A stretch of 33,323 nt of DNA, from contig JAAYVH010000020.1 of the NCBI GenBank assembly GCA_012517255.1, positions 1 to 33,323 of the forward strand, in the 5' to 3' direction. The stretch comes from Chthonomonadales bacterium (GTDB lineage: Bacteria; Armatimonadota; Chthonomonadetes; Chthonomonadales; CAJBBX01). This document shows, piece by piece, positions 24,693 to 32,305 of the stretch (its first letter is position 1; each line of letters opens with the position of its first letter). Under the pieces are notes generated by a model that saw only the letters and a list, made by a program, of their open reading frames with translations, was not told where the DNA came from and searched no databases. The position numbers were made by a program, and so were the translations under genes.

Positions 24693-25358
24693 ATGGACCC
24701 ACTTCCTGCGCCCGGCCCACCTTATCCAAGCGACGTCGTGGTTGAGCTGACCGGCGTCGGAAAGCGATTTGACCGCAAATGGGTGGTCAAGGATATCACC
24801 GGGCGGCTGACGTCAGGGTCAGTCCTGGGCATCGCCGGGCCGAACGGCTCCGGCAAGAGCACGCTGGTCAAAATGATCGCGACGCTCCTGCATCCCGATA
24901 GGGGCTCGATCTCGATCAGTGCGGACGGCCGCCCCTTGGACTGGCACGAGCGGCGTCGGTACATCGGCTGGGTATCTCCGGACACGGGCCTGTACCGGGC
25001 GCTCACAGGAGCGGAGCACGTGCGTTTCTTCGCCCGGCTTCACGGACTCGCCGATAACCCGGAGGCGGTGCTTTCAGCGCTCGATGGCGTCGGCCTCCAT
25101 GCGCGTCCGGGACTGATCGTCGGCGCTTACAGCTCCGGCATGGCACAGCGGCTCAGGTACGCCTGCGCCACGCTGCATCAGCCGCCCATTCTGCTGCTCG
25201 ATGAGCCTCACATGGCGCTGGATGCCGAGGGTCTCCGAATGGTTCGGCGCGTGGTTGAGCAGCAACGGCGCCGCGGCGTGTGCATCGTGGCCGGAAACCG
25301 CGATGACGAGCTGGCCCTCGCTGACTCGGTGCTGCGGATCGGTTCGGACGGTGCCTGA
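24693..25358 (+). CDS. ccmA: Heme exporter ATP-binding protein CcmA
   Basis: ABC ATPase of about 221 residues that powers release of heme-loaded CcmE with CcmBCD. Walker A is GPNGSGKSTLVKM, the signature is SSGMAQRL and Walker B is ILLLDEP followed by a normal D-loop (MALDAEG). The switch histidine after strand 4, normally in a THD/THQ motif, is replaced by Asn (VAGNRDDE, codon 25296-25298). The start is uncertain: ATG 24693 is chosen because ATG 24678 lies in the -10 box; a downstream GTG near 24738 is possible. It overlaps or abuts ccmB. Confidence 0.87.
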   Translation: MDPLPAPGPPYPSDVVVELTGVGKRFDRKWVVKDITGRLTSGSVLGIAGPNGSGKSTLVKMIATLLHPDRGSISISADGRPLDWHERRRYIGWVSPDTGLYRALTGAEHVRFFARLHGLADNPEAVLSALDGVGLHARPGLIVGAYSSGMAQRLRYACATLHQPPILLLDEPHMALDAEGLRMVRRVVEQQRRRGVCIVAGNRDDELALADSVLRIGSDGA

Positions 25359-25395
25359 ATCGCCTGCAGACCGAGCGCTTGTGTCCGTGGGATGG

Positions 25396-26061
25396 ATGGA
25401 TCAGGCGCTGGCTGTATATCGTAAAGACCTGAGGGTCGAGCTCCGCGAGCGTACGGCTCTCGCGTCGCTGGTCCTGTTCGTCCTTACCTCGCTCGTCGTT
25501 GTCGGGTTTGCGCTGACGGGCGGTGTCATGGAGCCCGGCGTGGCAGCGTCGCTGCTGTGGGTGGTCATGTTTTTCGCGACGTTCGCGGGACTGGGTCACA
25601 CGTTTGTCGCCGAGGAGGAGACCGGCACCGCGGCGGGTCTGCGCCTATCCGCATGTCCCGAAGCCATCCTGGCAGGCAAGCTGATGATGAACCTGACCTT
25701 GCTGGCAGTCGTGGCGGTAGTTGCAGTACCTCTGTTCGTCGCCATCGCCAAACTGCCCGTTCCGGCAGTGGGTCGGCTGATCGCCGTGGTGGCAGGCGGG
25801 GTCTGCGGGCTGGCCTCGGCTGCGACGGTTATCGGCGCGCTGGTGGCCAAGGCTCGGGCGCGAGGCGTCTTGTTCGGCGCGATCGGGTTTCCGATCGTTC
25901 TGCCCTTGCTGATGATGACCGCAGTGGCGACGCGCCATGCCATCTCGCCGCTGGCGGGCGACTGGATGTGGCTGCGTGACGCCGGCGGGCTCTTCAGTTA
26001 CGCAACGATGCTGGTGGCTGCGTCGGTGCTGGTGTTTCCGATCATATGGGAGAGTAACTAG
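25396..26061 (+). CDS. ccmB: Heme exporter membrane protein CcmB
   Basis: Six-helix membrane protein, 221 residues from ATG 25396, equal to E. coli CcmB (220). It starts MDQALAVYRKDLRVELRER, the typical CcmB N-terminus, and contains FVAEEETGTAAGLRLS, another conserved block, then repeated hydrophobic helices. It forms the transporter core with CcmA. GTG starts at 25351 (overlapping ccmA by 8 bases) and 25381 are alternatives; the chosen ATG fits the family best. ccmC follows after 4 bases. Confidence 0.9.
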   Translation: MDQALAVYRKDLRVELRERTALASLVLFVLTSLVVVGFALTGGVMEPGVAASLLWVVMFFATFAGLGHTFVAEEETGTAAGLRLSACPEAILAGKLMMNLTLLAVVAVVAVPLFVAIAKLPVPAVGRLIAVVAGGVCGLASAATVIGALVAKARARGVLFGAIGFPIVLPLLMMTAVATRHAISPLAGDWMWLRDAGGLFSYATMLVAASVLVFPIIWESN

Positions 26062-26065
26062 GGCC

Positions 26066-26755
26066 ATGGGCTGGATATGGAAGACGGCAACGGGATTCCT
26101 CATGGCAGGAACCGTATGGGGCATGATGGCATACGTGCGGCCGGCGGAGGGTTTCCTTTATCCGGACGGCGCACGGATCATCATCATACACGTGCCGTGC
26201 GCCTGGATCAGCGCCGTCGCCTATCTGGTTGCCGCGTGGAATGCTGGTAGGGTGCTCAAGCGCGTGGCCAGGCCGCAGGACGAGACATGGGTGCGACCGG
26301 ACTGCCTGTGCGAAGCCTCCATGGAGCTGGGTCTGCTGTTCTCGATCCTGACGACTGCCACAGGCAGCATCTTCTCACGTCTTCAGTGGGGCGCATTCTG
26401 GAGCTGGGATCCACGGCAGACATCCATCGTGGTGATCATGCTGCTGTTCGCCGCGTATCTTGTACTGAGGTCGTCGGTGACCAATGCAGTCATGCGCGCA
26501 CGGTTGACATCCGCATATGCGATCATCGCAGTGGTTCCCGGCATGTTCCTGATCTGGGTGTTACCGCGGGTCGTCGCATCGCTGCACGGAGACGCCAACA
26601 ATGCCGTGATCGGCGGGGGACTGGATTCCCAGTATCGAGCGGTACTGTACGGACTGGCGCTGCCTGCCTTTGTCGGCCTCTACACCTGGCTCATGCAACT
26701 GCGCATGCGTCTTTCCATGGCCGAATGGAGGGCTGTTGAGCGCAGTGTTGGCTGA
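26066..26755 (+). CDS. ccmC: Heme handling protein CcmC
   Basis: Six-helix membrane protein of 229 residues that presents heme to CcmE. The tryptophan-rich WWD motif is WGAFWSWDPRQT (108-119). The two external histidines that ligate heme are present: His42 in IIHVPCAWIS and His174 in VASLHGDAN. These separate it from CcmF, which is much longer. It begins 4 bases after ccmB and is followed by ccmD after 47 bases. Confidence 0.94.
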   Translation: MGWIWKTATGFLMAGTVWGMMAYVRPAEGFLYPDGARIIIIHVPCAWISAVAYLVAAWNAGRVLKRVARPQDETWVRPDCLCEASMELGLLFSILTTATGSIFSRLQWGAFWSWDPRQTSIVVIMLLFAAYLVLRSSVTNAVMRARLTSAYAIIAVVPGMFLIWVLPRVVASLHGDANNAVIGGGLDSQYRAVLYGLALPAFVGLYTWLMQLRMRLSMAEWRAVERSVG

Positions 26756-26802
26756 GGCCCGCAAAGCGGCTGGCGTGCACCTTTCGACTGGAGGGTTGGA
26801 CT

Positions 26803-26928
26803 GTGAACAATCAGATATGGGTTGTCGCGACGCCATTGATCGTCTGGATGGGAGTGTTCTGCTACACGCTGATCATTGACAGACGGATGCGCGCGATCGA
26901 GAACCTCGTGGGGAGCGACGACGCGTGA
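26803..26928 (+). CDS. ccmD: Small membrane protein CcmD
   Basis: A 41-residue frame starting at GTG 26803 with GGAGGG upstream. It encodes a single hydrophobic helix (IWVVATPLIVWMGVFCYTLI) followed by a charged DRRMRAIE stretch, the layout of CcmD. CcmD is needed to release holo-CcmE from the CcmABC complex. Position between ccmC and ccmE, and a GTGA overlap with the ccmE start, support the call. Confidence 0.8.
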   Translation: MNNQIWVVATPLIVWMGVFCYTLIIDRRMRAIENLVGSDDA

Positions 26929-27362
26929 AGCGCGGTCCGCTGGTGGCGTTCATCGTGCTCGTAGGCGCCGCGGTCCTGACATTCGTCAGCTTCAGCGGCG
27001 CGACAGCAAGGCACGTGACCATCGCCGAGGCGATGCGTCTCAACGGGCAGGTTGTGCAGGTACCCGGCCGCATTCTCCACGACACCGTCCGCTATGATCT
27101 GCAGGGTGATCGGGGCGAGCTGCGCTTCGACGTCGCGGACATGCAGGGCGGCAGCGAGACGATGACCATCGTCTACTCCGGCGCCAAGCCCGAGAACTTC
27201 GCCAACGCCACGAGCGTGGAAGCGATCGGAGCGTACAGCGGCGGGGTTTTCCGCGCTCGGACTCTCCTCGTAAAGTGTCCATCGCGGTATCAAGGCTCAG
27301 ATCAGAAACAGGCTAGCACGCAGGCCAGTAAGGTCGACAGCGACGGGAACGTCTCGCGTTGA
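26925..27362 (+). CDS. ccmE: Heme chaperone CcmE, Cys-type (CxxxY)
   Basis: Membrane-anchored periplasmic heme chaperone of 145 residues: an N-terminal helix (about 5-24), then an OB-fold domain with LNGQVVQVPGRI and LRFDVADMQGGSETMTIVYSG. Classical CcmE binds heme covalently through His in an H-x3-Y motif. Here the site reads VKCPSRYQ, with Cys118 and Tyr122 (Cys codon 27276-27278), the variant known from Desulfovibrio and archaea. The tail after Tyr122 is Gln/Ser/Lys-rich and likely disordered. It starts at GTG 26925 and couples to ccmD and ccmF by overlaps. Confidence 0.93.
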   Translation: MKRGPLVAFIVLVGAAVLTFVSFSGATARHVTIAEAMRLNGQVVQVPGRILHDTVRYDLQGDRGELRFDVADMQGGSETMTIVYSGAKPENFANATSVEAIGAYSGGVFRARTLLVKCPSRYQGSDQKQASTQASKVDSDGNVSR

Positions 27363-29773
27363 TGGAACCCGGGAGAATCGCCGTCATCGTTGGCCTGTGC
27401 GCCAGCATTCTGACGTTCGTCGTGTATCTGCGCTTGCTACGGCCCACATCAAGCAAGCTGCTGTGGGGCATAGCAAGATCGAGTCTGGCCATTTCGGCAG
27501 CATCGAGCGTGTTCTGCTTCGCCTGGCTCATGCGCCTTGTGGCAACCAAGCAGTTCCAGTATCGCTACGTCTTCGACTACACCTCGGCAGACCTGCACGG
27601 GGCCTTCCTGTACTCAGCGACGTGGGCGGGCCAGGAAGGGAGTTTCGCGCTCTGGGCCGCCTTGACCGGGCTGATCGGCCTCCTCGTAGCCTGGCGCGCG
27701 CGCGACTGGGAACCGCGCGTCATGCCGGTGTACATGACGAACCTCATCGCGCTCTTCGCCATCATGCACTGGCTCAGTCCGTATGTGGTCATGCCACCGG
27801 AGACCGGTCCCAGACCCTCCGATCTGCCTCCGGGAATGCCCTGGCCGCCCCCATGGCCGCCTCAAGACGGCAACGGGCTGAACCCATCGCTGCAGAACAT
27901 ATGGATGGCCATCCATCCGCCAACGATCTTCTTCGGCTTTGCATGTCTCGCGGTACCGTTCTCGTATGCCATCGCGACGCTGCTGTGGCGCAGCTATGAC
28001 GAGTGGGTCAAGCGCGTCTCGCCCTACGTTCTGCTGACAGTCGGCACGCTCGGAACCGGATTGTTCATGGGCGGCTACTGGGCCTACGAAACGCAGGGAT
28101 GGCACGGTTTCTGGGCATGGGACCCGGTGGAAAACGCGTCGCTATTCCCATGGCTCGGCGCGCTTGCGCTGGCGCACGGCCTCATCGTTCAGAGAAGCCG
28201 CGGCGGGATGACGCGGACGAACCTGTTCCTTGCCATTGCATCGTGGCTGCTCTTTGTCTACGGAACGTTTCTGACGCGGTCGGGCGCACTCGCCAACTTC
28301 TCGGTTCATGCCTTCGGCATGCTGGATAACGCCGCGCTGCGCATTCTCGTCATCCTGATCGGCGTCCAGGGCGTGGCGGGTCTCGGGTTGCTGCTGTGGC
28401 GCTGGCGCACCATTCGCGGTCAGAAGATGTCCGAGTCGGTCCTGTCACTCGATTCCGCCATGTGGTTCGCCATGGTTCTCATGTGCGTAGCTGCCGCGAT
28501 CATCACCCTGGGCACCTCGTGGCCCCTCATATCCCGCTGGCCGATCTGGAAGAGCATACCGGCCCTCTCCGCCATCTATGCCGCCGATGGCGTGCGCGTC
28601 GAGCCGATCTTCTATAACCGCATCGGGACTGCCCTGGTGCTCCCGACACTCCTGCTCATTGGGCTGACGCCATTTCTCGTATGGGGCCGCACCGACTCAG
28701 AACAGCTGCTGAAGCGAATCATGGTCCCTTGGCTCTCGGCCATCGTCGGCGGCGTGGCCCTGCTTGCGTTCGTCCTCCATGAGGCCGCGTCCGGTTTCGA
28801 AGCAGGCACGCCGCGGGTGGTGACCGTCGCGGTGGGTACGTTGGGGTTGTTCGCCGCTTTGGCGAGCCTGTGGCTGGCCATCAAGCTGGTTCGCGCACGA
28901 CCGGTCTATATCGGCGGGTGGCTCGCCCATGCGGGGGTCGGTCTGTTGCTGCTCGGCACGGTGATTACGAACGTGTATGAGAAGACCGCCAGCTATGCCG
29001 TCATCGAGGGTAGGGGACCGGTCCGCACGGCGTTCGGCTACAGCCTCGAGTTCCTTGGGTGGACGCACGAAGGCAAGACCGAGGAAGAGGTTCTCAAAGA
29101 CTGGAAGAGATTCGATCACGCCGTGCGCTTGCGCGTCACGCCAGACCGAGGAGGCGAGCGGAAGGGATACGAGGCGAGGGTGGCGGTGTTCAAATACTGG
29201 AACGCGGGTCAGGGCGAGTGGTCGACAATGACGTGGCCCGACATTCGGAAGCAATGGCATCGTGACATCTACCTTGCTGCCGCCGACGATCCCCGCCTTG
29301 TCCGACCGATTGCCACGCTGAGCCCCGGCGAGACCTCCACTATTGGGGTGCCCGGACTGGGTCCGACTGGCTATGAGGTCCGCTACGATCGTTTCTACCG
29401 ATCGTCCACGGGCGCGCAAATGGCAGGCGAAATGGGCGCCGAGATGACGCTCCTGACGCCGGACAAGCGCGAGATAAAGATCCGCCCCGGACTTGCCTTC
29501 GATGGAGGGGAGCCTCGCCCGGTTCATGTGGCCATCCCCGAACTCAACGGCGCCGTCATACTTGAGGGCGGCATCCAGCCTGAGACCAAACAGGTGACGG
29601 CCGCATTCGAGCTCCCCGGCGCTCCGGCGTCGTGGGTGGTGCCGATCGCCGCCACCAACAAGCCAATGATCAATCTTGTCTGGCTGGGCGTGGTGCTGAT
29701 CGGCGCAGGATCACTGATCGCCATGACGAGGCGTGCCGGCGAGATGAGGGCGACTGCGAAGACAAGCGCCTAG
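27362..29773 (+). CDS. ccmF: Cytochrome c heme lyase subunit CcmF
   Basis: Multi-helix membrane protein of 803 residues (E. coli CcmF 647) that takes heme from holo-CcmE and attaches it to apocytochrome c. The WWD motif is WHGFWAWDPVENASLFPW; nearby GGYWAYETQGW and LTRSGALANFSVHAFG are strongly CcmF-like, as is SATWAGQEGSFALWA in the first third. A large C-terminal extracytoplasmic domain of about 240 residues precedes the last helix and accounts for the extra length. The start ATG overlaps the ccmE stop (TGATG). It is the last gene of the run; no ccmG, ccmH or ccmI follows. Confidence 0.95.
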   Translation: MEPGRIAVIVGLCASILTFVVYLRLLRPTSSKLLWGIARSSLAISAASSVFCFAWLMRLVATKQFQYRYVFDYTSADLHGAFLYSATWAGQEGSFALWAALTGLIGLLVAWRARDWEPRVMPVYMTNLIALFAIMHWLSPYVVMPPETGPRPSDLPPGMPWPPPWPPQDGNGLNPSLQNIWMAIHPPTIFFGFACLAVPFSYAIATLLWRSYDEWVKRVSPYVLLTVGTLGTGLFMGGYWAYETQGWHGFWAWDPVENASLFPWLGALALAHGLIVQRSRGGMTRTNLFLAIASWLLFVYGTFLTRSGALANFSVHAFGMLDNAALRILVILIGVQGVAGLGLLLWRWRTIRGQKMSESVLSLDSAMWFAMVLMCVAAAIITLGTSWPLISRWPIWKSIPALSAIYAADGVRVEPIFYNRIGTALVLPTLLLIGLTPFLVWGRTDSEQLLKRIMVPWLSAIVGGVALLAFVLHEAASGFEAGTPRVVTVAVGTLGLFAALASLWLAIKLVRARPVYIGGWLAHAGVGLLLLGTVITNVYEKTASYAVIEGRGPVRTAFGYSLEFLGWTHEGKTEEEVLKDWKRFDHAVRLRVTPDRGGERKGYEARVAVFKYWNAGQGEWSTMTWPDIRKQWHRDIYLAAADDPRLVRPIATLSPGETSTIGVPGLGPTGYEVRYDRFYRSSTGAQMAGEMGAEMTLLTPDKREIKIRPGLAFDGGEPRPVHVAIPELNGAVILEGGIQPETKQVTAAFELPGAPASWVVPIAATNKPMINLVWLGVVLIGAGSLIAMTRRAGEMRATAKTSA

Positions 29774-29775
29774 AC

Positions 29776-30747
29776 TTAGCAGTCCGCAGTTCTGCCCGTA
29801 CGGGCTGACTCGAGCGCCGCGTTGGTGAACCGAAGCACCGGCCACAGCTCATCTGGCGGGGCGGGGTTGGGCAGTTCGCCGCGGATCATGCCTACGAACT
29901 CAGCGTCGGCTCCCAGGGTGCTGGATTCAGGAACGATCTCTACGGGCTTGCCATCCTCGATCCACTTCGGGCGGTAGTTCTCCACGATGAAGTCCATGCG
30001 CTCGCAATGGATGTTGATCTGTTCGCGCCATGCGTGCCCATCGCCAATGAAATGGAACGTCATCGGAACCTCGCCGGCGAGCTCTGCGACACCCCACACT
30101 CGAATGGGAACGCGAGTCCCAGCGCAGCTTACCGTGGCGGCGACGGTGGCGGGAGACAGGCCCGTTGCCCACATGACCATGTCGAGCTGATGGCCACTTG
30201 CATCGTAGAAGAACCCGCCCGGACATCGCTCCGGATCGTGTCGCCACGTTCCGCGGTTCGGAGTGATCCAGTCCTCCGAGTTGTAGACCGTCACTGCCGT
30301 GACTCGGCCAAACTCTCCTGAGAGAATCCGCTGCCGCATGGTGCGGTGCGCCGCATCATACCGACGCTGATAGGTCATCGCTACGACGAGACCCGTGGAA
30401 TCCCTGGCTTCGATGACATCCCGGAGTTCGCTTTCTGACCGGGTGAGCGGCTTCTCGCACAAGACGTGCTTGCCCGCTGCGAGGCTGTCCAGCACCTGGC
30501 GCACATGGTGGGTGTCCGGGCTCGCAATGCAGACGGCTTCGAGCGGCGCATCGAGCAGTTCACGATGGTCCGATGCTCGCACGACGTCCGGATGGCTAAC
30601 GAGGGCTGCGGCATCCTGCAGGCACTGCGGATCAGGATCGGCCAACGCGGCGATCGCCACGCCCGGCAACTCCTGAAGCCGTCGGATATGTCGGCGTCCG
30701 TAGTCGCCGCAACCGATGATGCCAAACCGAATGGTTTCTGCGGCCAT
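29776..30747 (-). CDS. Gfo/Idh/MocA-family oxidoreductase
   Basis: Oxidoreductase of 323 residues with an intact nucleotide loop (FGIIGCGDYGRRH), catalytic lysine motif HVLCEKPLTRS and active-site motif FFYDASGHQLDMVMWATG with Asp, His and Asp. The start ATG 30747 gives the normal Rossmann N-terminus; upstream codons to 30810 lie over the dehydrogenase gene. It follows pruA by 10 bases and so is probably cotranscribed, though the substrate is unknown and no metabolic link to proline is evident. Its stop lies only 2 bases from the ccmF stop, tail to tail. Confidence 0.9.
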   Translation of the reverse strand: MAAETIRFGIIGCGDYGRRHIRRLQELPGVAIAALADPDPQCLQDAAALVSHPDVVRASDHRELLDAPLEAVCIASPDTHHVRQVLDSLAAGKHVLCEKPLTRSESELRDVIEARDSTGLVVAMTYQRRYDAAHRTMRQRILSGEFGRVTAVTVYNSEDWITPNRGTWRHDPERCPGGFFYDASGHQLDMVMWATGLSPATVAATVSCAGTRVPIRVWGVAELAGEVPMTFHFIGDGHAWREQINIHCERMDFIVENYRPKWIEDGKPVEIVPESSTLGADAEFVGMIRGELPNPAPPDELWPVLRFTNAALESARTGRTADC

Positions 30748-30757
30748 CGCTCGGTGG

Positions 30758-32305
30758 TCAGAACCTCTCGGACACGGACTTGGCCTGCATGAAGAGCTGC
30801 AGGTAGTCACGACCGCCGGCCTTGCTATCCGTGCCGCTCATATTGAAGCCGCCGAACGGCTGCACGTCCACCAGCGCGCCCGTGCACTTGCGGTTGAAGT
30901 AGAGGTTCCCGACATGGAACTCGCGGCGAGCAATCTCCAGGCGCTGGCGGTCCTGCGAGTACACGGCGCCCGTCAAGCCGTACTCTGTGCCGTTGGCGAT
31001 CTCCAGCGCATGCGCAAAGTCGCGAGCGCGCACGACGGCAAGAACGGGTCCGAAGATCTCCTCTTGAGCAAGGCGCGCACCGGACGCGACGTCCGCGACG
31101 ATTGTGGGAGGAACGAAGTAGCCAGTGTCCGGCACCGGGCCGCCGCCGAGAACTATGCGGCCCTCAGATGGAGCCAACGCGATGTAGGACTGTATCTTCT
31201 CCATGGCTGCCCGATCAATGACCGCGCCGAGATTCGTCGCTCGGTCGGATGGATCGCCAACCCGGAGCTGCGCCGCTCGACCAACCACCCGCTCGAGGAG
31301 CTCGTCGTAGACTTCGTCCACCACTATCAGCCTGGAACAGGCGGAGCATTTCTGGCCCTGGTAGCCGAATGCCGACGCAACAATGCCTTCGACGGCGGAA
31401 TCGAGATCTGCGGTCTCATCCACGACGATGGCGTCCTTACCGCCCATCTCCAGGATCGTGCGCTTCAGCCACATCTGTCCGGGATGAACCACCGCGGCCC
31501 GCTGGAATATCCTCACGCCGACATCCTTGGAGCCGGTGAAGGCCACGAAGCGGATCCCTGGATGGTCCACCAGAATGTCGCCGATCTGGGCGCCAGAGCC
31601 CGGCAGGAAGTTAACGACACCCGCGGGCATGGATGCGCTTGCGAGGACCTCCATGAACTTGGCAGCGATGACGGGAGCCTGTGAGGCTGGCTTCACAATG
31701 ACCGTGTTGCCGGACACAGCCGCAGCAACGGTCATGCCGCCCATGATGGCGAGAGGGAAGTTCCACGGCGAGATGACGGCGCCGACTCCCAGCGGGATGT
31801 AGTAGACGCAGTTCTCCTCGCCCGGGAACGGCGTTGTGGGATGGGCTCCGTCGAGGCGCATCATCTCCCGGGCATAGAACTCCAGAAAGTCGATGACCTC
31901 TGCGACCTCCGCCCACGCCTCGGGCCACGTCTTGCTCACCTCATAGGTCAGCCAGGCCGAGAACTCGAAGGCACGACGGCGGATGATCGTTGCTGCTTTG
32001 AGGAGGATCCGCGCGCGTGACGCCGCATCCATGCGCCGCCAATCCGAACCGGAGCGCGAGGCTTCCTCGATGGCGCGCACAGCATCCTCCGGTCGGGCTT
32101 TGGCGACACGCCCCACGACCATGTCCGGACTGGCGGGATTCACCGATGTGATCCACTCACCGGTCTCGAACGAGCGTCCACCTACGATAAGAGGCCAGTC
32201 ACGCCCGAGTTCAGAACGCACAGCGCGGAGGGCAGCCTCCATGGCGTTGGCATGCTCTGATTGACTGAAGTCGAGCATTGGTACGTTAGTGAAGGGAGGA
32301 AGCAT
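30758..32305 (-). CDS. pruA: L-glutamate gamma-semialdehyde (P5C) dehydrogenase
   Basis: Aldehyde dehydrogenase of 515 residues that oxidises glutamate semialdehyde to glutamate in proline and arginine breakdown. The N-terminus (PPFTNVPMLDFSQSEHANAM then PLIVGG) is the distinctive start of the RocA/PutC branch. The catalytic cysteine is in YQGQKCSACSRLIV and the general base in LEMGGKDAIVVDE; IPLGVGAVISPWNFPLAI and PFGGFNMSGTDSKAGG are also branch-typical. AAAGGA lies 10 bases before the ATG. No proline dehydrogenase is nearby. Confidence 0.94.
   Translation of the reverse strand: MLPPFTNVPMLDFSQSEHANAMEAALRAVRSELGRDWPLIVGGRSFETGEWITSVNPASPDMVVGRVAKARPEDAVRAIEEASRSGSDWRRMDAASRARILLKAATIIRRRAFEFSAWLTYEVSKTWPEAWAEVAEVIDFLEFYAREMMRLDGAHPTTPFPGEENCVYYIPLGVGAVISPWNFPLAIMGGMTVAAAVSGNTVIVKPASQAPVIAAKFMEVLASASMPAGVVNFLPGSGAQIGDILVDHPGIRFVAFTGSKDVGVRIFQRAAVVHPGQMWLKRTILEMGGKDAIVVDETADLDSAVEGIVASAFGYQGQKCSACSRLIVVDEVYDELLERVVGRAAQLRVGDPSDRATNLGAVIDRAAMEKIQSYIALAPSEGRIVLGGGPVPDTGYFVPPTIVADVASGARLAQEEIFGPVLAVVRARDFAHALEIANGTEYGLTGAVYSQDRQRLEIARREFHVGNLYFNRKCTGALVDVQPFGGFNMSGTDSKAGGRDYLQLFMQAKSVSERF

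Follow-up and report, generated by a model that had tools for sequence, protein, structure and literature searches.

A System I*-type cytochrome c maturation operon with Cys-type CcmE and a duplicated CcmF beta-cap in Armatimonadota

We analysed a window of 33,323 nucleotides from an Armatimonadota genome of the order Chthonomonadales. Pfam and NCBIfam models identified a ccmABCDEF operon on the forward strand at positions 24693-29773 (Table 1), and the relatives of its CcmF likewise belonged to Armatimonadota of the order Chthonomonadales. All six genes point the same way with little or no space between them, and ccmD/ccmE and ccmE/ccmF overlap. As the original prediction had it, the run closes with ccmF and is followed by an unrelated convergent gene, which encodes a GFO/IDH/MocA oxidoreductase. 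We placed the ccmB start at the ATG at 25396, with a GTG at 25387 also possible, and the ccmF start at either a TTG at 27359 or an ATG at 27362. CcmA and CcmC were nearest to ccm models in NCBIfam but scored below the curated cut-offs, as did CcmB, and we counted the CcmA and CcmB scores against our preferred explanation. In CcmC, both heme-ligand histidines of the E. coli protein (H60 and H184) are kept, and Trp114 is replaced by Phe. The Pfam CcmD_alt model reached only 0.034 on the ccmD product.

Table 1. Features of the ccm operon and its downstream neighbour, with the evidence for each assignment
Feature	Positions	Strand	Evidence
ccmA, heme-release ABC ATPase	24693..25358	+	PF00005 2.4e-24; TIGR01189 1.7e-31, below cut-off; operon position
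ccmB, membrane subunit	25396..26061	+	PF03379 1.1e-15, above gathering score
ccmC, WWD heme-handling protein	26066..26755	+	PF01578 1.2e-18; TIGR01191 2.2e-21; residue check
ccmD, 41 aa, one transmembrane segment, GTG start	26803..26928	+	TIGR04391 CcmD family 8.1e-6, above cut-off
ccmE, Cys-type heme chaperone, 145 aa	26925..27362	+	PF03100 7.1e-15; nearest solved structure D. vulgaris CcmE 2KCT
CPSRY motif of CcmE (Cys118, Tyr122)	27276..27290	+	alignment with E. coli, Firmicutes and Armatimonadota CcmE
ccmF, holocytochrome c synthase, 804 aa	27359..29773	+	PF01578 9.6e-24; PF16327 (CcmF_C) 1.6e-18; four heme-ligand His; 6ZMQ match
CcmF periplasmic beta-cap, copy 1 (residues 541-645)	28979..29293	+	hhalign vs single-cap CcmF 97%
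CcmF periplasmic beta-cap, copy 2 (residues 645-770)	29291..29668	+	length bimodality; hhalign vs canonical cap 97.5%
GFO/IDH/MocA oxidoreductase, convergent, unrelated neighbour	29776-30810	-	next gene after ccmF

CcmE reads LLVKCPSRYQ, and the codon for Cys118 lies at 27276-27278. It had been proposed that this cysteine takes the place of the heme-binding histidine, and alignment with homologs bore this out: Cys118 and E. coli His130 occupy the same column. The Cys-type CcmE of D. vulgaris (2KCT), which was the closest solved structure and the only CcmE of known structure matched, aligns through its KCP motif at the same position, and the structure-database search returned no His-type CcmE up to E 0.1. 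Among plasmids, the only matches to CcmE were Cys-type Bacillaceae proteins. In relatives, Cys-type CcmE binds heme covalently and a CcmH-free operon works (PMC3601427; PMC9084895). By analogy with this work on Desulfovibrio and Methanosarcina, Cys118 would form a covalent bond with heme.

The core of CcmF is conserved, with the WWD motif, two transmembrane histidines and two P-histidines all present (WHGFWAWDPVEN). H186, H273, H317 and H524 correspond to H173, H261, H303 and H491 of E. coli CcmF, and the AF2 model matched the Thermus CcmF structure 6ZMQ as its only Foldseek hit (E 2.2e-19). Of the features expected of a CcmF, only the usual single beta-cap before the last transmembrane helix was not found. 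The model places an all-beta cap between the last two transmembrane helices (cap pLDDT 88.5). To judge by the interval between Asp636, the Asp of the DLY/DIY motif, and Pro769, caps fall into two classes with no intermediates. This interval spans 117-222 residues in 65 complete CcmF sequences (including a few of the same genomes from two collections, and leaving out the incomplete sequence L047), all from outside families f4-f6, compared to 22-27 in the CcmF of E. coli, of two Firmicutes and of five f4-f6 Armatimonadota. The long beta-cap is thus ~100-120 residues bigger. In a tree of the CcmF core, the sequences with the larger cap all group in a single clade with a long stem, and those of f4-f6, Firmicutes and E. 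coli fall outside it.

The extra domain is a second copy of the cap, since both halves match the canonical cap and each other while controls score low. With hhalign, the first half (residues 541-647) matched the canonical single cap at 97% probability, the second half (645-770) at 97.5%, and the two halves matched one another at 95%. By contrast, 300 column-shuffled controls (gap-poor columns) gave 4% or less, and an unrelated beta family, CcmE, gave about 3% or less. These profiles show the longer CcmF cap to be a tandem duplication of the beta-cap. An origin of the extra domain from ResB was considered and rejected. The ResB model PF05140 matched 16 of 19 long CcmF sequences at E up to 0.1, but it also matched E. 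coli and single-cap CcmF, and the insert alone aligned to ResB at only 5%, so duplication is preferred. Searches with the cap alone returned nothing significant in Foldseek and nothing relevant in a PDB profile search, and no plasmid sequence from outside Armatimonadota matched the double cap.

We then considered the rest of the genome (G000; 4.77 Mb, estimated 100% complete, 327 contigs). Profile search with PF03918 gave no CcmH match across it, although, with so many contigs, the model could miss a CcmH that fell in a gap or had diverged strongly. CcmI likewise had no match genome-wide. The classical System I signature, HXXXY CcmE together with CcmH, is therefore replaced here by CPSRY and no recognised CcmH. 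The prediction that ccmG, ccmH and ccmI are all missing held in full for ccmH and ccmI only; for ccmG, it holds for the operon and the curated model TIGR00385, which had no match above its cut-off and seven sub-threshold matches to TlpA/ResA-like thiol-disulfide reductases, a membrane-anchored TlpA-like protein among them. The related suggestion that the thiol-reducing arm is missing needs correction, since the genome encodes CcdA, periplasmic thioredoxins and TlpA-like proteins. There were 12 redoxin-family matches, one of which (L105) is N-terminally membrane-anchored and TlpA/ResA-like with a WCGQC motif. The single CcdA (1.1e-10) belongs to a cluster on contig C322 that also encodes an ArsP permease and two periplasmic thioredoxins (motifs CIPC and CGPC), with an octaheme cytochrome c gene 34 bases downstream. 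No other known cytochrome c maturation system was recognised, and the ccm operon was the only one found.

A search for multiheme c-type cytochromes was positive. In addition to the octaheme protein on C322, contig C257 encodes a pentaheme ActA-like protein with ActB/ActC-like genes, ActE-like and CtaC-like cytochromes, and COX1. Since all of these cytochromes are encoded, the ccm operon has clients.

To place the operon in its phylum, we surveyed 291 Armatimonadota genomes. CcmE was present in 198 of them and CcmH in only four (G003, G004, G006 and G136). All 91 distinct CcmE sequences that we read, drawn from about 24 families among the CcmE-bearing genomes, had Cys at the motif position and none had His (80 CPSKY, 8 CPSRY, 2 CPTKY and 1 CPSKE). 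The Cys-type, CcmH-free state is thus the norm of Armatimonadota and not an oddity of a single genome. In G003, G004 and G006 (families f4-f6), a Cys-type CcmE is followed by ccmF and then CcmH. In G136, the CcmH match and a strong CcmG lie together on a 3,044-base contig, which is probably a contaminant. Two Bacillaceae (Firmicutes) plasmids also combine Cys-type CcmE with CcmH, so a Cys-type CcmE does not entail the loss of CcmH. In line with this, about one third of bacteria with Cys-type CcmE have CcmH, according to the review PMC3601427. The two traits had been presented as one combination; both do occur here, but G003, G004, G006 and the two plasmids show that they are not strictly coupled.

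Taken together, the locus is very probably a System I* (variant Ccm) operon, in which CcmABCD, a Cys118-type CcmE and CcmF would act without CcmH or CcmI and with apocytochrome thiols reduced by general reductants. CcmABCD would load heme onto Cys118 of CcmE, and holo-CcmE would pass it to CcmF; joining heme to CXXCH motifs would then need no CcmH/CcmI partner for CcmF. Thiols of the apocytochrome are probably kept reduced by a general periplasmic system and not by a dedicated CcmG/CcmH pair; CcdA may pass electrons to thioredoxin/TlpA proteins, membrane-anchored or periplasmic, whose genes lie outside the operon, so that CcdA/TlpA-type proteins are candidate thiol reductases for the ccm system. 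By extension from work on Desulfovibrio and Methanosarcina, heme attachment would be independent of CcmH, and the operon may be expected to behave as its relatives in Desulfovibrio and M. acetivorans do.

How CcmF could manage without a partner may relate to its cap. It is possible, though in our view somewhat unlikely, that the second cap compensates for CcmH by binding or positioning the apocytochrome CXXCH above the WWD/P-heme site, as proposed for CcmH in CcmFH, making CcmF a stand-alone synthase. In favour of this are the match of the second half to a cap, the split between long and short intervals, the location of the CcmF and CcsBA beta-caps over the heme site (PMC10663686) and the proposed role of CcmH in positioning CXXCH (PMC10746174). 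The doubled cap also tracks CcmH absence across Armatimonadota: the three CcmH-bearing genomes whose CcmF was read (G003, G004 and G006) all have single caps, and the long-cap sequences make up their own long-stemmed clade. However, this amounts to a single evolutionary origin, and G001 and G002 (f4) are exceptions, with single caps though no CcmH was found. Because the second cap is Cys-free in 55 of the 65 sequences, it could replace docking or positioning but not the thiol chemistry of CcmH. A more far-reaching version, which we regard as doubtful, is that the doubled cap created a synthase not needing CcmH in a single event, in an ancestor of most Armatimonadota, and that this would explain the near phylum-wide loss of CcmH. 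A compensating cap would extend the System I* explanation and does not oppose it.

Other readings concern the thiol-reducing arm. The cluster on C322 could in principle be an unlinked but dedicated arm, with its thioredoxin-(PpiC/Trx)-CcdA genes doing the job of CcmG and CcmH, and its CcdA, its two periplasmic thioredoxins and the nearby octaheme gene all favour this. Still, the cluster often accompanies an ArsP permease and is found whether or not a genome has CcmE, the octaheme gene adjoins it in a minority of loci only, and G034, a close relative of the same genus with Cys-type CcmE, had only weak thioredoxin matches. We consider a dedicated role of this kind somewhat unlikely and set the cluster aside as a dedicated reductive arm, given that its distribution in the phylum does not follow that of CcmE and that it is often found with ArsP. 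It is far less likely that a highly divergent CcmH/CcmG pair went unrecognised and that this is an ordinary System I with a Cys-type CcmE. The genome does have TlpA/ResA-like proteins, one of them N-terminally anchored, and sub-threshold matches to the CcmG model occurred in 290 of 291 genomes. Yet PF03918 detected CcmH in 4 of 14 control genomes and beside ccmF in the f4-f6 Armatimonadota, finding none elsewhere in the phylum except on the probable contaminant contig of G136. Moreover, among 69 CcmE-bearing loci, no CcmH- or CcmG-like gene recurs beside ccmF.

System I* has been reported in delta-proteobacteria, Chloroflexi and Firmicutes (Allen 2006; Goddard 2010; reviewed in PMC3601427), and the same review describes a Desulfovibrio ccm operon that produces cytochromes c in E. 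coli without CcmG or CcmH. Like the systems of D. desulfuricans and D. vulgaris, ours comprises ccmABCDEF with a CXXXY-type CcmE and a CcmD, has no CcmH, and has no CcmG in the operon. Unlike D. desulfuricans, in which CcmI enhances yield, it lacks CcmI and belongs to Armatimonadota. In M. acetivorans (ccmABCEF1F2), ccmABCEF suffices, and the CcdA and TlpA/CcmG-like proteins (ccdA and ccmG) are dispensable in the laboratory (PMC9084895). This archaeal system shares with ours a Cys-type CcmE, the absence of CcmH and CcmI, and CcdA and TlpA/CcmG-like proteins encoded elsewhere; however, archaea lack CcmD and the M. acetivorans CcmF is split, whereas our genome has CcmD and a one-chain CcmF. Compared to the classical System I of E. 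coli (CcmABCDEFGH), the order of CcmA-F and the heme-ligand histidines of CcmC and CcmF are alike, but Cys stands in for His130, CcmH and CcmI are missing, and the CcmF cap is doubled.

The original prediction that the variant reaches a different phylum was confirmed, as Armatimonadota are not named among the System I* phyla in the review PMC3601427, and the literature that we searched held no link between Armatimonadota and Ccm. The operon is real and well preserved; within that literature it is new for Armatimonadota, although the kind of system was already known. A whole phylum is added to System I*, one that shows a Cys-type CcmE and CcmH loss to be separable traits. In E. coli, CcmF cannot work without CcmH, yet the Desulfovibrio and archaeal systems dispense with it. 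For how a CcmF does so, Armatimonadota offer a natural comparison: with CcmH nearly always missing, the CcmF cap doubled and a few single-cap, CcmH-bearing relatives at hand, the extra cap presents a concrete, removable domain. The duplicated cap is the part of most interest to specialists, and the phylum-wide occurrence of System I* is also new here.

With respect to System II (CcsBA/ResBC), the likeness is limited to a weak profile similarity between CcmF and ResB in the TM-cap-TM module, which E. coli CcmF shares. Our genome had no ResB match, and the inserted cap copy does not by itself resemble ResB. Across the phylum, ResB was mostly complementary to CcmE: 34 genomes gave a strong ResB match, and only 4 of these (G058 and G230-G232) also have CcmE.

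In an alignment with E. coli CcmC, all 41 Armatimonadota CcmC proteins (that of the window and 40 others) carried Phe in the column of W114, a position close to the 4-vinyl group of heme. Both His and most of the remaining WWD residues were retained in these same proteins.

CcmE varied in copy number and motif. Many genomes of family f15 (G144, G109, G129, G106, G130, and G143) contained two CcmE genes on separate contigs or loci, and every copy read was Cys-type. Another genome, G235, yielded five matches to PF03100. At locus L096 (genome G215), the CcmE motif was CPSKE, which is without the conserved Tyr of CXXXY and resembles the rare Tyr-less variants on record (PMC3601427).

Following the ccm genes on the same strand, 11-12 of 69 Armatimonadota loci (e.g., L151 and L090) held glutamyl-tRNA reductase (hemA)-like and precorrin-2 dehydrogenase-like genes, names that we assigned by reading the sequences. 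This arrangement suggests a heme synthesis-maturation cluster at these loci.

Typical CcmG and CcmH were found on a short contig of G136 (C7, locus L060; 3,044 bases), a genome that is otherwise that of a Cys-type Armatimonadota, and this contig is probably assembly contamination. A thioredoxin-CcdA gene pair occurred repeatedly across Armatimonadota, frequently beside ArsP, with a distribution independent of CcmE. The window's own genome (G000) has such a pair on contig C322.

Coordinates of the CcmC gene and of features on other contigs of the same genome
Location	Feature
Window, 26066-26755	CcmC
L137:1928-7959 (G000:C322)	Consecutive genes: ArsP permease, small thiol protein, thioredoxin, PpiC-like/thioredoxin fusion, CcdA, octaheme cytochrome c
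L136:9497-11002 (G000:C25)	Membrane protein, about 500 aa, with C-terminal CMACH cytochrome c domain

The membrane protein on contig C25 resembles a subunit of the cytochrome bd type that has been joined to a heme c domain.
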